64,000 bases of DNA from Galbibacter sp. BG1 (GTDB taxonomy: Bacteria > Bacteroidota > Bacteroidia > Flavobacteriales > Flavobacteriaceae), in NCBI RefSeq assembly GCF_013391805.1, contig NZ_CP058364.1:2108501-2172500 (forward strand). Direction: 5' to 3'. Both the position numbers and the translations under genes were made by a program. A model generated the notes under the pieces. The model had not been told where the DNA came from. It searched no databases and was given only the letters and a program-made list of their open reading frames with translations. Shown in pieces: positions 4,057 to 43,251 of this stretch; positions within the stretch are counted from its first letter, which is position 1; each line of letters begins with the position of its first letter.

Positions 4057-4190
4057 GAAGATTTCTAAAGTATCGTTTGGAAAATCAAATATATTTTCTG
4101 AATCTTTGGAGTCAGACATTTTAGGAGTTTTTCAGTAAAAAATGTAATAAAAACACCCACCTAGTGGGAAGTTCATAAATAAATTGTTAA

Positions 4191-4334
4191 TGTTATCAAG
4201 AAAGGCGGAGGGAATAGACCTGTCGATGCCTTAGCAACCCTTTATCTGTAAAGAAGGTGCTACATTCTACCACGGGAATTTGTGGATAGATAACAAGAAT
4301 TTTATTCTTACGCGTTTACGCTTTTCTTGCTAAC
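4191..4334 (+). promoter_or_regulatory. SAM riboswitch (S-box/SAM-I type) controlling metY and the fused metX-hom gene
   Basis: The aptamer runs from about 4191 to 4295. P1 pairs GTTATC (4192-4197) with GATAAC (4289-4294); inside are the S-box landmarks AAGAAAGGCGGAGGGA, ATGCCTTAGCAACC and AAGGTGCTACATTCTACC. SAM binding should turn the operon off. Expression platform: bases 4320-4334 (GCTTTTCTTGCTAAC) could pair with the 5' side of P1 (4192-4206) at 13 of 15 positions, mutually exclusive with P1. I see no classical terminator, so control could be at transcription or at translation. The 4057-4190 stretch before it holds only a small CCCAC/GTGGG hairpin (4156-4168). Confidence 0.93.
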
Positions 4335-16280: not shown

Positions 16281-16425
16281 GCGTTATCAAGAAAGGTGTA
16301 GGGATTAGACCCGCAGAAGCCTTAGCAACCCTTAACCCTAATATGTTTTTAGAAATTCAAACAAACATAATTTGGGCACAAGAAGGTGCTACATTCTACC
16401 ACGCCCCGGTGTGGACAGATAACAA
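16281..16425 (+). promoter_or_regulatory. SAM riboswitch controlling the two-gene metH and probably metF
   Basis: P1 pairs GTTATC (16283-16288) with GATAAC (16418-16423). The S-box core AAGAAAGGTGTAGGGA, AGCCTTAGCAACCC and AAGGTGCTACATTCTACC is present. Compared with the first riboswitch one internal helix is ~40 nt longer: CCC...ATGTTT (16336-16348) can pair with AAACAT...GGG (16363-16376). After the aptamer an AT-rich AAAAAGA/TCTTTTT hairpin with a T run (16424-16441) could act as a weak terminator. The remaining leader 16442-16662 has no gene I can support. Confidence 0.93.
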
Positions 16426-39860: not shown

Positions 39861-39909
39861 TGTTGCCGGCAGGCTTAAAGAGAATTGCCGTTGTTCGCAC
39901 AATATTTTT

Positions 39910-40626
39910 TCAGTGGTTGATTTTTTTATTTAACTCATACCCATTTACGATATCTTCAAAAATCCTTCTCGAATTTTCTGTCTTAAAAAAGGACTCCAGA
40001 AATAATTCATCAAGGATGATTGGATTTTGTCCTTGTTTGAGTGTTTTTCTAAATATCACTTCTGATTCGATTTTATCATCAGACTCTATTTCTCCACAAT
40101 ACCTTTCAGCTCGCTCTATTAGTTTATCATCTTTATTGTCGAATAATCTAATTCCTTTATTTGGGAGAATACAATTGTTAAAAATGTTTTTGCCATATAC
40201 ATTCACATTTTCAAAAATTAAACCACTTAAATCACAATTTTTAAAAACCGTTTCATTGTTAATAATTTTTGCATGTTCATCATTCAAGATTGAATTTTTC
40301 ATTAATCCAGATAATTGGCAATCATAAAAGTATTGGCCAGTGAATAAGTCGATGCCTATAAATTGACAATTTACAAATCGACAATTATAAAAGGATGAAG
40401 GTGGACCAAGTGAACTATATTTTCCGTAAAATCTGCAATCAATAAAAGTGCAGTCGGAATATTTAGAATTATACCCTAGAAAGCAGTTTTTGAAATGAAC
40501 ATTTTGAAAAATCACTTTTTTTATCTGGGCTTTTCTAACTGTCAGTTCGTTAAATAAAATATTAATGAACTTTTTATTTTCGATTCTTCCGCTCCAATCT
40601 AATTTATGTTCTTTGGTTCTTTTCAT
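39910..40626 (-). CDS. Pentapeptide-repeat-like protein
   Basis: 238 residues, soluble. Residues ~30-165 show a degenerate five-residue rhythm with an aromatic or Cys at the centre (for example VIFQNVHFKNCFL, CTFIDCRFYGKY, CRFVNCQFIGIDL, VFKNCDLSGLIFENVNV), as in right-handed quadrilateral pentapeptide helices. The C-terminal ~70 residues are helical and charged. It lies convergent to aroA in what looks like an accessory island. Function unknown. Confidence 0.7.
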   Translation of the reverse strand: MKRTKEHKLDWSGRIENKKFINILFNELTVRKAQIKKVIFQNVHFKNCFLGYNSKYSDCTFIDCRFYGKYSSLGPPSSFYNCRFVNCQFIGIDLFTGQYFYDCQLSGLMKNSILNDEHAKIINNETVFKNCDLSGLIFENVNVYGKNIFNNCILPNKGIRLFDNKDDKLIERAERYCGEIESDDKIESEVIFRKTLKQGQNPIILDELFLESFFKTENSRRIFEDIVNGYELNKKINH

Positions 40627-40863
40627 TCGACTTGCGCAGTACGGTTTAGCTAAGTTCAGTGCGGAGGCAAGGAGACCTTTGTTTTCGTCTTTGCAGAAAG
40701 CTAAAGCTTATTGTTTTTGATTTATTTTTGTGCTCTAAAGCTTAATTCATAAGATTTGGCGAGTTTTTAAATTTATACAGACCTTTCTGTTTTGTCCAAA
40801 AATCCGTAATACGCTTAGTTATTGTTGCTCAACGTTTTTTTCTCTGGACTTTACTGAAGTTAT
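40627..40863 (-). other. Gene-free spacer resembling a flavobacterial cassette-type intergenic element
   Basis: The 237 bp between two minus-strand orphan genes contains strings such as GACTTGCGCAGTACGG, CTTTGTTTTCG and TTGTCCAAAAATCCG that I associate from memory with recurrent spacers between unrelated orphan genes in Bacteroidota. On the minus strand it ends in GCGCAAGTCGA directly at the pentapeptide gene's ATG. I see no ORF in it. The resemblance is recollection, not a search result. Confidence 0.4.
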
Positions 40864-41469
40864 TTATTCAAATAGTTTTCCTTTTTTATTTTCTAATATG
40901 AAATAATTCAGAATAGCCATCCACATAATTACAGAAGGGATCATTCGATAGTCCTTTCGAATCACATGAAGAATGATTAAAATTCCTATAGTATAACTTG
41001 TAATTACCCAAACTAGTTTTAAAAAATCCAGACTTCTTTTAATTGGTTTATTTAAGAAACTAAAAAAGTATGTTATCATTATCCCGATAAACCCAACTGT
41101 TAATATGTTATTACCAGATACACCTTGAAATTCCCAATGCAAAATTTTGATTAAGGCTCCTATAATTATAATTGCGATAATTCCTTTTAATATTCTAAAG
41201 TATTTAGTTTTTATAAAAGTACCATTAAAGAACAACATGAAAAATCCAGCAGTTTGTCCTATCCATAAACCTCTTTCAAACCATACTTCGGCGTTTGGAT
41301 TGTTTGTTAAGTTTATAGAAACAAACGAAGCCAAAGCTATTACTAGTCCGATTATAACTATAGTAACATAGTAAAAATTGTTTTTCATATTGTTGTGTAG
41401 CTCCTCTACAAACACAATAGCGTTTATTTCTTCTATCAAATCTACTAAATTATCTTTTTTCTGTATCAT
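40864..41469 (-). CDS. Hypothetical multi-pass membrane protein
   Basis: 201 residues. A hydrophilic ~25-residue N-terminus is followed by about six hydrophobic segments (two near 32-52 and 68-84, then 92-108, 125-142, 150-170 and 178-193). The stretch KILHWEFQG followed by a Gly-rich LTVGFIG resembles the K-x-x-HW-x motif seen in many small Bacteroidota membrane proteins, including GldL-like ones, but I do not assign it to a family. It belongs to the accessory island between aroA and queA. Confidence 0.6.
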   Translation of the reverse strand: MIQKKDNLVDLIEEINAIVFVEELHNNMKNNFYYVTIVIIGLVIALASFVSINLTNNPNAEVWFERGLWIGQTAGFFMLFFNGTFIKTKYFRILKGIIAIIIIGALIKILHWEFQGVSGNNILTVGFIGIMITYFFSFLNKPIKRSLDFLKLVWVITSYTIGILIILHVIRKDYRMIPSVIMWMAILNYFILENKKGKLFE

Positions 41470-41538
41470 ATAAAAAAATATTTCTATGACGAACTTATTG
41501 GCGCCATTATTAAAATCCTCCGTCTTTTGGGTACAAGC

Positions 41539-41691
41539 ATGGAGTGTTTAGGTGCTAAGACCTTGTTTTTGGATTCTATAACCAAAGCTTTCAACGTTTT
41601 AATCAAAGTTTGGGTGATATCTATCAAACTTTTAAAAGAACCCTTTAAAATTTTAACCCCTAGAGGTAAAAACTTTAGAGCTTCGGGTTAA
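41539..41691 (+). CDS. Possible 50-residue protein of heptapeptide repeats (doubtful)
   Basis: ATG 41539 to TAA 41691 opens the first seven units of the 21-bp array, so each DNA unit encodes seven residues: MECLGAK, TLFLDSI, TKAFNVL, IKVWVIS, IKLLKEP, FKILTPR, GKNFRAS. A Lys at position 2 and a hydrophobic pair at 3-4 recur. No clear ribosome site, and the following units contain stops in all frames. It may be a remnant of a repeat gene or chance in a periodic sequence. Confidence 0.3.
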   Translation: MECLGAKTLFLDSITKAFNVLIKVWVISIKLLKEPFKILTPRGKNFRASG

Positions 41692-41916
41692 ATTTTTAAT
41701 GGTTATTGCTAAAAACAAGGTTGTTTAACCAAAACAGGGTGTCAGCACACCTAAAAAATTGGTCTAGCTATCTAAAAGGTTTATAAATTGACCTAAATGT
41801 TTTGGCTCCGTAGCTAAAAACTTTGATAGGAAGCCTAAATTTTTAGGTGCCGAACCTAATTATTTAACCGTCTTACCTAAATGATTGCGTGCCAGGGCTC
41901 AAAATTTGAATGTGTG
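41539..41916 (+). repeat. Degenerate tandem array, 18 units of exactly 21 bp
   Basis: Cutting 41539-41916 every 21 bp aligns a shared core without a single indel: positions 3-12 approximate C[TA]AAAnnTTT, positions 1-2 are mostly A and C/T, and positions 13-21 vary freely. Well-matching units start at 41581, 41602, 41686, 41749, 41791, 41812, 41833, 41854 and 41875. Within the 732-bp gap 41470-42201 this array is followed by a promoter-terminator unit. Twenty-one bp is two helical turns, so the A and T tracts are in phase. It is not a CRISPR: units are too short and too divergent. Confidence 0.85.
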
Positions 41917-41982
41917 TAACCGAAAATGCAGTTGGGATATAAATCTTAAAACCTTGAATATTAGAAATAATTGCCGTTTTCC

Positions 41983-42014
41983 TTGACAACCCCTATCTCC
42001 ATATTGTATATTTG
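41983..42014 (+). promoter_or_regulatory. Promoter upstream of a candidate small RNA / queA
   Basis: TTG (41983-41985), a 21-bp spacer and TATATTTG (42007-42014) fit the Bacteroidota consensus well. The transcript would start near 42019. No ATG lies between here and the terminator at 42114. Confidence 0.75.
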
Positions 42015-42018
42015 CAGC

Positions 42019-42166
42019 TCGCTAATTGGCGATTGTAGGAAATTTATACAAATAAGTATTTAATTCCATTTTTTAAAACGGATTTGAGCCTAATAAAATA
42101 ATTAAAAATACACACCGATTTTCCTTAAAATCAATACTGGTTTTAAGGATATCGGTTTTTTATTTT
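42019..42166 (+). ncRNA. Candidate small RNA or attenuated queA leader
   Basis: A ~148-nt unit bounded by the promoter at 41983-42014 and a strong intrinsic terminator (ACCGAT...CCTTAAAA at 42114-42130 pairing with 42141-42156, then a T-rich tail). It lacks any start codon. A GCTC/GAGC closing pair and an inner hairpin (GGAA...TATAC with GTAT...TTCC, ~42037-42067) suggest a rod with internal loops, which would suit a 6S-like RNA, but I cannot place it in a family. Alternatively it is a leader ending early before queA, whose ATG is 36 bp downstream. Confidence 0.45.
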
Positions 42167-42201
42167 AACCATTAGGTTCCTGAAAAAATAAATTGTAGCA
42201 A

Positions 42202-43251
42202 ATGAAATTATCACATTTTAATTTTGAACTTCCAAAGGAGTTATTGGCAGAATACCCTTCAGAAAATAGGGATGAATCCCGTTTAATGGTACTGCACCGT
42301 AAAGAGCAGAAAATCGAACATAAAATGTTCAAGGATTTAATAGATTATTTCGATGAAGGAGATGTAATGGTTTTAAACAATACCAAGGTTTTTCCAGCGA
42401 GGTTATTTGGTAATAAAGAGAAAACCGGAGCCCGTATCGAAGTTTTCCTGTTAAGGGAATTAAATGTTGAGCAACGCCTTTGGGATGTATTGGTAGATCC
42501 TGCCAGAAAAATTAGAATTGGTAATAAATTATATTTTGGTGAAGACGAAAGTCTTGTGGCCGAAGTTATAGATAATACTACCTCTAGAGGAAGAACGCTT
42601 CGTTTCCTGTATGATGGCTCTTATGAAGAATTCAGAAAAAAATTGAATGATTTAGGGGAAACACCGCTTCCTAAATACATAAAAAGAGATGTAGAGGCTA
42701 CAGACGAAGAGCGATATCAAACCATTTACGCCAAGACAGAAGGAGCTGTGGCGGCACCTACAGCTGGGCTTCATTTCTCTAAGCACTTGTTAAAGCGTTT
42801 GGAAATTAAAGGGATTGATTTTGCTGAACTTACCCTACATGTCGGATTGGGAACTTTTAACCCTGTGGAAGTGGAAGACCTATCCAAACATAAAATGGAT
42901 AGCGAAGAATTGTTTATCGATGAAAAGGCAGCGGCTATTGTAAATAACGCCAAAGACAACAAACGAAAAGTATGTGCTATTGGGACTACGGCTATGCGTG
43001 GTTTGGAGAGTTCTGTCTCTTCAGACTTAATGCTGAACCCTTACGAGGGTTGGACCAATAAGTTCATTTTCCCTCCATACGATTTTAGTATTGCCAATTG
43101 TATGGTTACCAACTTCCATACTCCTAAATCTACACTTTTAATGATGATTTCTGCTTTTGCAGGTCACGATTTTATGATGAAAGCTTATAAGGAAGCCATA
43201 AAAGAAGGGTATAGATTCTACTCTTATGGAGATGCGATGCTAATTTTATAA
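42202..43251 (+). CDS. queA: tRNA preQ1(34) S-adenosylmethionine ribosyltransferase-isomerase
   Basis: 349 residues, full length. It transfers the ribosyl part of SAM to preQ1 at the wobble base during queuosine synthesis. Motifs: [54 protein letters not shown] and [24 protein letters not shown] split over residues ~215-238. No other queuosine gene lies nearby. A terminator separates it from rlmN. Confidence 0.96.

Follow-up and report, generated by a model that had tools for sequence, protein, structure and literature searches.

A probable orphan among phased dyad arrays: 21-bp repeats upstream of queA in Galbibacter sp. BG1

The stretch of Galbibacter sp. BG1 DNA analysed here (64,000 nucleotides, hereafter the window) contains, shortly before queA, an array of short units repeated every 21 bp, which probably belongs, as a worn orphan, to a class of phased dyad arrays that often lie just downstream of a gene we call X, and which is a candidate docking site for a DNA-binding complex. 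This reading draws on the period of the array and the dyad symmetry of its unit, the head-to-head symmetry of the related arrays (class 1), their dispersal, their linkage to X, the correlation between X identity and array motif, and the occurrence of gaps only in whole units, all of which were observed directly; that X binds the array is what we infer from the sequences.

Methods

Genome G000 is the source of the window, and the remaining G and L numbers denote the compared genomes and loci. Genus and family searches for arrays used R1, a sequence-only model four units long that was built partly from the window array, its matches there therefore not being independent. Periodicity around X was evaluated in 600 bp on each side of the gene at a period of 20–22 bp, with 200 shuffles per X locus and 100 per control ORF. 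The first set of loci, drawn from the genus and family, comprised 25 X copies minus two cut by contig ends, and the phylum set comprised 28 of 30 loci; the excluded loci were L158 and L165 (internal stops), L178 and L179 (contig ends behind X), and L219 and L220 (partial matches).

Results

Period and unit of the array

Identity at lag 21 was 0.490 over positions 41539–41916, against 0.274 ± 0.023 in dinucleotide shuffles (z = 9.3; none of 2000 shuffles as high), which bears out the 21-bp period proposed in the original prediction. Lags 42 and 63 were likewise elevated (0.46 and 0.41), the maximum over lags 2–59 never rose above 0.37 in 500 shuffles, and the top-scoring 378-bp stretch of the whole 64 kb over the same lags was the array itself, at lag 21 and with a start at 41509. 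The signal was raised over about 41482–41961, wider than the span of recognisable units (about 41560 to 41916). Tandem Repeats Finder, run at score 30, did not report the array. Eighteen units without an indel had been predicted; the period is real, but the first unit, at 41539, is a misfit (leave-one-out score of −10.2 against the unit matrix), and half-site tracking preferred a single 22-bp step in the left part of the array, a shift of the motif by 1 bp that leaves the absence of indels nearly right.

The division of the unit into a conserved half and a free half had overlooked a dyad. The unit is two-sided, consisting of the 14-bp dyad CCTAAA-NN-TTTAGG or, in its fuller form, (A)CC[T/A]AAA-NN-TTT[A/T]GG(T), and this form is plain in the clean arrays of the congener G101. 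The window copy is worn, the fraction of its units that keep a perfect half-site being 0.25 (of 16) versus 0.74 (of 189) in G101. The other X-bearing genomes gave 0.65 of 54 units (G104), 0.45 of 64 (G100) and 0.11 of 19 (G102), and G000 as a whole, in which X was not found, gave 0.34 of 47.

An insertion between aroA and queA

About 2 kb are inserted between aroA and the queA promoter in the window, with the array at the right edge. By-eye comparison found no such insertion in any of the six other genomes of the genus, where the conserved queA promoter comes straight after aroA with no array, and the accessory location that had been proposed is supported. Homology to these empty sites resumes at about 41952, immediately past the right edge of the array (about 41951). 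The features of the region are as follows.

39870–41951, no strand: insertion separating aroA from the queA promoter, with two genes on the minus strand and, at its right edge, the array (queA upstream sequence in seven genomes, by eye; left edge approximate)
39910–40626, minus strand: 238-aa pentapeptide-repeat-like gene within the insertion, a bystander (ORF list, Pfam)
40864–41469, minus strand: 201-aa membrane-protein-like gene that weakly matches GldL_N and is divergent from the array, a bystander (ORF list, Pfam)
41380–41480, no strand: left flank common to the second array (567 kb) of the same genome, spanning the start of the 201-aa gene (pairwise alignment)
41539–41916, no strand: 21-bp-period dyad array with core CC[T/A]AAA-NN-TTT[A/T]GG (lag-21 autocorrelation, unit matrix, half-site tracking, matches of model R1)
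41834–41847 (G000:C1:2150334-2150347), no strand: sole perfect dyad of the array, CCTAAATTTTTAGG (genus-wide dyad search, unit scores)
41952–42018, plus strand: queA promoter region, kept in congeners (comparison with L103-L107 and L002)
42202–43251, plus strand: queA, the core gene to the right of the insertion (matched in 97 of 100 family genomes)

Two sets of nearby genes were considered as partners of the array and set aside: the 201-aa gene, whose matches in congeners are partial and weak (35–39% over 62–77 residues), and the toxin-antitoxin-like and HNH genes, which lie near the genome's other two arrays and are not common to the window array. The queA leader (42018–42200) carries a hairpin-like stretch and a T run ahead of the start codon, seen by eye and similar in congeners, with no Rfam match at gathering score, and a 6S-like RNA downstream was considered and found no support in Rfam. 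Elsewhere, 14 kb of the window hold one SAM-II and two SAM-I riboswitches (2678–2737, 4190–4296 and 16281–16425).

A dispersed family of class-1 arrays

Similar arrays occur in relatives, as the original prediction had required. The genome of the window itself has at least three class-1 arrays, namely the window array, a second at 567 kb (66% identity and E 2.9e-8 in a DNA search of the genome) that has about 100 bp of left flank in common with it, and a third at 957 kb with E 0.014, yet plain on reading. Model R1 placed class-1 arrays at a minimum of 14 places in G101, 4 in G104, 4 in G100 and 2 in G102, and among the matches listed there was no convincing class-1 array in G030 (best E 0.0035) or G103 (0.001). 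A strict-filter R1 search of 299 family genomes at E <= 1e-4 returned the genome of the window itself plus three weak, isolated matches (L231-L233), in which no clear 21-bp period was found on reading and the best lag-21 value was 0.44–0.47. The exact two-dyad pattern was present in three contigs of the GTDB contig collection, all from Bacteroidota metagenome-assembled genomes and each containing an array, and in none of the viral contigs.

Several other repeats were observed around these and related loci. Direct repeats of ~100–230 bp (longer in L087) recur along L082, L087, L095, L096, L098 and L040 among the arrays and accessory genes, and by analogy these look something like gene-cassette boundaries, in the manner of attC. 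Text-like low-complexity intergenic sequence (aaacttcaaactagaaac...) is repeated on both sides of the arrays in L085, L083 and L089, and 98-bp tandem repeats that are 94–96% identical occupy L100 8039–8876 (G102), where a weak array lies about 2 kb away. In another genus, L018 112–260 is a 22-bp-period array (TTGAACATnnnGGATGTTT) about 1.2 kb from queA, possibly an orphan with still another motif.

Anatomy of the better-kept arrays

The well-kept class-1 unit is (A)CCTAAA-NN-TTTAGG(T), a 14-bp dyad followed by 7 variable bp, in which the CC and GG outside the A/T tracts are among the best-conserved letters. Complete dyads are central; the half-site TTTAGG persists on the left of an array and CCTAAA on the right, as in the half-site scores of L083 (left 212453666566566, right 566666665642321). 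Logos of 83 left-arm units and of 69 reverse-complemented right-arm units were near-identical (21 of 26 arrays, with L091, L097, L098, L100 and L101 left out and one of the two arrays in L082 tracked), and class-1 arrays are therefore head-to-head, with half-sites pointing inward. This gradient is faint in the window copy and in L039 and good in L040.

Among six G101 paralogues, compared as 15 pairs that are not independent of one another, 879 substitutions were counted over 4686 aligned array positions; the gap runs there numbered 14, of which ten were 21 bp and four were 42 bp long, whereas the flanks contained 73 (left) and 45 (right) gap runs, mostly of other lengths. Since gaps occur only in whole units, either selection maintains the phase or gain and loss involve entire units only, a result that supports the spacing constraint suggested in the original prediction.

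A second class of arrays

The dyad ACGTATCC-N-GATACGT, with one mismatch allowed, was found at five places in the window's genome, six in G100, four in G101, four in G104 and one in G103, and the reversed-pattern control gave none in all seven genomes. A 43-bp double period was present in all nine second-class places that were read. The five arrays of the window's genome (L222-L226, at 387, 1110, 2402, 3290 and 3667 kb) carry the motif ACGTATCCnGATACGT, which also occurs in four congeners, and the array in G103 (L227) is fresh, with a lag-43 identity of 0.94, in a genome in which X was not found. Orphan arrays of at least two motifs thus coexist in the genome of the window.

Identity and distribution of gene X

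Gene X encodes a protein of about 157 aa that appears helical by eye. Searches of Pfam, NCBIfam, PHROG and PADLOC yielded no convincing family for it (the best E of any single member, about 0.001, was to weak and unrelated families), and no PDB chain came below E 0.23, so nothing flags X as a DNA-binding protein. Within the genus it was found in G100, G101, G102 and G104, the congeners with class-1 arrays, and was absent from G000, G030 and G103 at the thresholds used; its best tblastn match in the window had E 0.11, and its own-genome searches found none at E <= 0.001 or 1e-5. Beyond the genus, X was present in 9 of 397 genomes of the family sample and, in the phylum sample of Bacteroidota, in 29 of 395 genomes, which cover 21 of 171 genera; it was not found in viral contigs or, with two queries for each collection, among phages and plasmids.

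X is a stand-alone gene with neighbours that vary between loci (25 copies, by eye). At L174 (G355) a tandem pair of X genes is followed by one weak array, and at L183 and L184 (G238) a short gene of 117 and 120 aa, respectively, perhaps helix-turn-helix by eye, comes right after both arrays; it is possible that this gene is a third part of the system. A literature search of open-licence papers, a body of text in which the nameless X is hard to query, found nothing describing such arrays or X.

Linkage of X to phased arrays

Five class-1 arrays in four congeners lie past the 3′ end of X, with an IS-like gene between the two in L095. A 20–22-bp-period array was present within 600 bp downstream of 32 of the 51 X genes and upstream of 6 (Fisher p = 1.3e-7, pooled), leaving 19 loci with no significant downstream array. 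At p <= 0.01, the downstream and upstream counts were 15 and 4 of 23 in the genus and family set and 17 and 2 of 28 in the phylum set. Control ORFs at the first-set loci had a significant periodic array in 16 of 115 cases, so the background of periodic intergenic DNA is not nil, and the downstream regions of X in the first set differed from these controls at p 1.2e-6. At L198 and L201 (G480 and G590), a strong, A/T-rich array of 21-bp period lies upstream, not downstream, of X.

The core CCTAAA-NN-TTTAGG of the window array recurs in the X-adjoining arrays L092, L099 and L080 and weakly in L101. Elsewhere the X-linked motifs vary, and include AACGTA..TACGTT (L154/L188), ACGTATCC..ATACGT (L187, L189), CTAAC-NNNN-GTTAG (L183), ACCCCAA..TTGGGGT (L180) and GGTA..TTCGGAA..TACC (L211), among others. 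Their consensus units were dyadic (p <= 0.02 versus column shuffles) at 11 of 17 loci and then at 15 of 19, two of the 19 being arrays upstream of X, and the 356 unit steps measured were of 21 bp (275), 22 bp (67), 20 bp (4) and 42 bp (10). In L180 and L183, outside the genus, one half-site is kept throughout and the arrays are not head-to-head (by eye).

Over 31 loci, the similarity of motifs rose with X identity (Spearman 0.33; no value as high in 2000 permutations), L095 being excluded since its IS-like gene parts X from the array. A CCTAAA-like motif accompanies X copies that are 44–60% identical in G101, G100 and G667, across families. This correlation may reflect joint inheritance instead of recognition.

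Discussion

Four other explanations of the array were weighed against a docking site for a DNA-binding complex. We think it unlikely that the array is a mobile repeat, that is, a non-autonomous, MITE-like form of an X-plus-array element that is copied by X or by a host enzyme. Many scattered copies exist, most of them without X, and their occurrence is patchy; two G101 copies are 81% alike over 335 bp within unrelated flanks, the two sides of the L083 array match separate places in six of six relatives, and the window copy lies inside an insertion missing from all six congeners. Against mobility, the one G101 pair that was compared has neither sharp ends nor target duplications, its likeness fading across the outer units, and X carries no transposase signature in the libraries tried and was not found among phages, plasmids or viral contigs in the searches above. 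The hypothesis that the arms pair with each other, as a structured RNA or a single-stranded DNA hairpin, is the least probable of those considered. The core half-sites of one arm are the reverse complements of those of the other, but complementarity beyond the core was 0.24–0.44 in 17 arrays (taken about the axis of best core pairing, with no expected value computed), the folding energy of six arrays was not clearly below that of spacer-permuted versions (z −1.6 to +0.8), and at gathering score no Rfam family matches the window array, an Rfam search of 41400–42300 by E-value giving nothing but chance matches at the array.

That phased A/T tracts curve the DNA through roughly a full circle, with the bend itself as the function, seems highly improbable to us. 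A dinucleotide wedge model predicted a net bend of 327 degrees in the window array versus 85 in shuffles, 283 degrees in L040 and 356–369 in four G101 arrays (shuffles near 80). Elsewhere, an excess of bend was predicted for 7 of 13 X-linked arrays. The strong bend anticipated in the original prediction is thus predicted for the window array, but the other six of the 13 (L202, L211, L206, L216, L215 and L189) keep the period without excess bend, on which ground curvature was rejected as the common cause, and the conserved CC and GG lie outside the A/T tracts. Phasing, not bending, is therefore the feature common to the arrays, and we think that bending is a by-product of some motifs. Slightly more improbable still is a functionless worn tandem repeat or the relic of a heptad-repeat protein (PKxLGxx), the latter corresponding to the seven codons per unit raised in the original prediction. 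The frame CCT AAA NNT TTA GGN has no built-in stops, and some congener arrays are open for ~100 codons or more. When this frame was followed on both strands of 26 arrays, however, the window array contained 10 stops on the plus strand and 8 on the minus strand over 41500–41951; the coding reading was rejected on these stops and on the dyads, and it also sits poorly with the 67 steps of 22 bp among the 356 in X-linked arrays. The dyad symmetry and the 22-bp steps also speak against a repeat without function, as do paralogue gaps of only 21 or 42 bp, though whole-unit slippage would give the same pattern.

We favour the docking-site reading, under which a sequence-specific protein, X or a partner, would bind the 6-2-6 dyads as dimers. 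With a spacing of two helical turns from unit to unit, the dimers would all lie on one face of the helix and could pack cooperatively, forming one regular nucleoprotein body of some 10–20 units, and in class-1 arrays the inward-facing half-sites would be the essential contacts. As a first guess, the complex would be a docking or tethering site working like a plasmid centromere. The window array has dyad units at a 20–22-bp period, several of them in register, and a motif common to X-linked arrays, with X absent within 600 bp. X was not found in its genome at the thresholds used, so we call the copy an orphan; it is probably either a relic or one that another protein serves. The per-genome half-site fractions only partly bear out the idea that array quality simply tracks whether X is present: G000 and G103 have arrays without X, and the class-1 arrays of G102, which has X, are the poorest, so the decay of arrays upon loss of X does not hold cleanly.

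More tentatively, and in our estimation with slightly less than an even chance of being correct, X and its own two-turn-phased array may constitute a two-part system spread across the phylum Bacteroidota, in which each X would recognise its own motif, several specificities would share a genome, and cognate arrays would be scattered as docking sites for a centromere-like, chromosome-organising or selfish machine built on a protein of no known family. If X binds the array, the two would represent a new kind of sequence-specific protein–DNA assembly, with X in about 7% of the sampled Bacteroidota genomes (29/395), and would account for intergenic repeats of a type that can escape a standard tandem-repeat finder. 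Natural pairs of X and array with differing specificity make recognition directly testable, and the arrays may reveal a new way of marking, tethering or spreading chromosomal DNA.

Comparison with known systems

CRISPR repeats are near-identical and over 20 bp long, and are accompanied by unique spacers and cas genes. Unlike these, the arrays described here have a 14-bp conserved core with 7 variable bp between, and no cas-like neighbours were seen by eye. The ends of Tn7-type transposons carry ~22-bp transposase sites that are inverted between the two ends. Class-1 arrays resemble them in the inverted orientation of sites of about this length, but have no cargo, no sharp ends that could be seen, and no shared transposase neighbour at the X loci (by eye).

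REP and BIME repeats are accompanied by a dedicated small gene, that of the RAYT transposase. The likeness to REP/RAYT lies in intergenic palindromic repeats (for REPs, PMC12306157), many orphans and one dedicated small gene. REP palindromes are 20–40 bp long and scattered between genes; the arrays are intergenic and palindromic, but phased and clustered. They further differ from REP/BIME in their 21-bp phase, in having about 10–20 units per array, and in the head-to-head arrangement of class 1. X gave no match to a Y1 (HUH) transposase in the libraries tried.

Iterons are often spaced about two helical turns apart beside the gene of a Rep initiator, and the arrays are iteron-like in their two-turn phase and in adjoining one gene. 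They are unlike iterons and Rep in that many orphan arrays occur per chromosome and X was not found in the plasmid collection; X matches no Rep family, and no Rep initiator was noticed by eye among the differing neighbours.

The arrays resemble the parC/ParR type II partition systems in that a small protein adjoins phased repeats with a family-specific sequence. One paper (PMC9426499) gives parC repeats of 20 bp in pSK41, 11 bp in R1 and 17 bp in pCW3, and states that ParR does not bind non-cognate parC from another family. The differences are the dyad units, the head-to-head class-1 arrays, the chromosomal location and the many copies. The neighbours of X (25 genes, with ORF starts judged by eye only) include no shared family and none that reads as ParM, and the ribbon-helix-helix trait of ParR found no match for X in Pfam (22 members) or NCBIfam (4 members). 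The arrays thus fail a defining feature of each of parC/ParR, iterons/Rep and REP/RAYT where tested. Literature silence and failed family searches suggest that the arrays and X may together be a new kind of system, although its principle may prove to be centromere-like.
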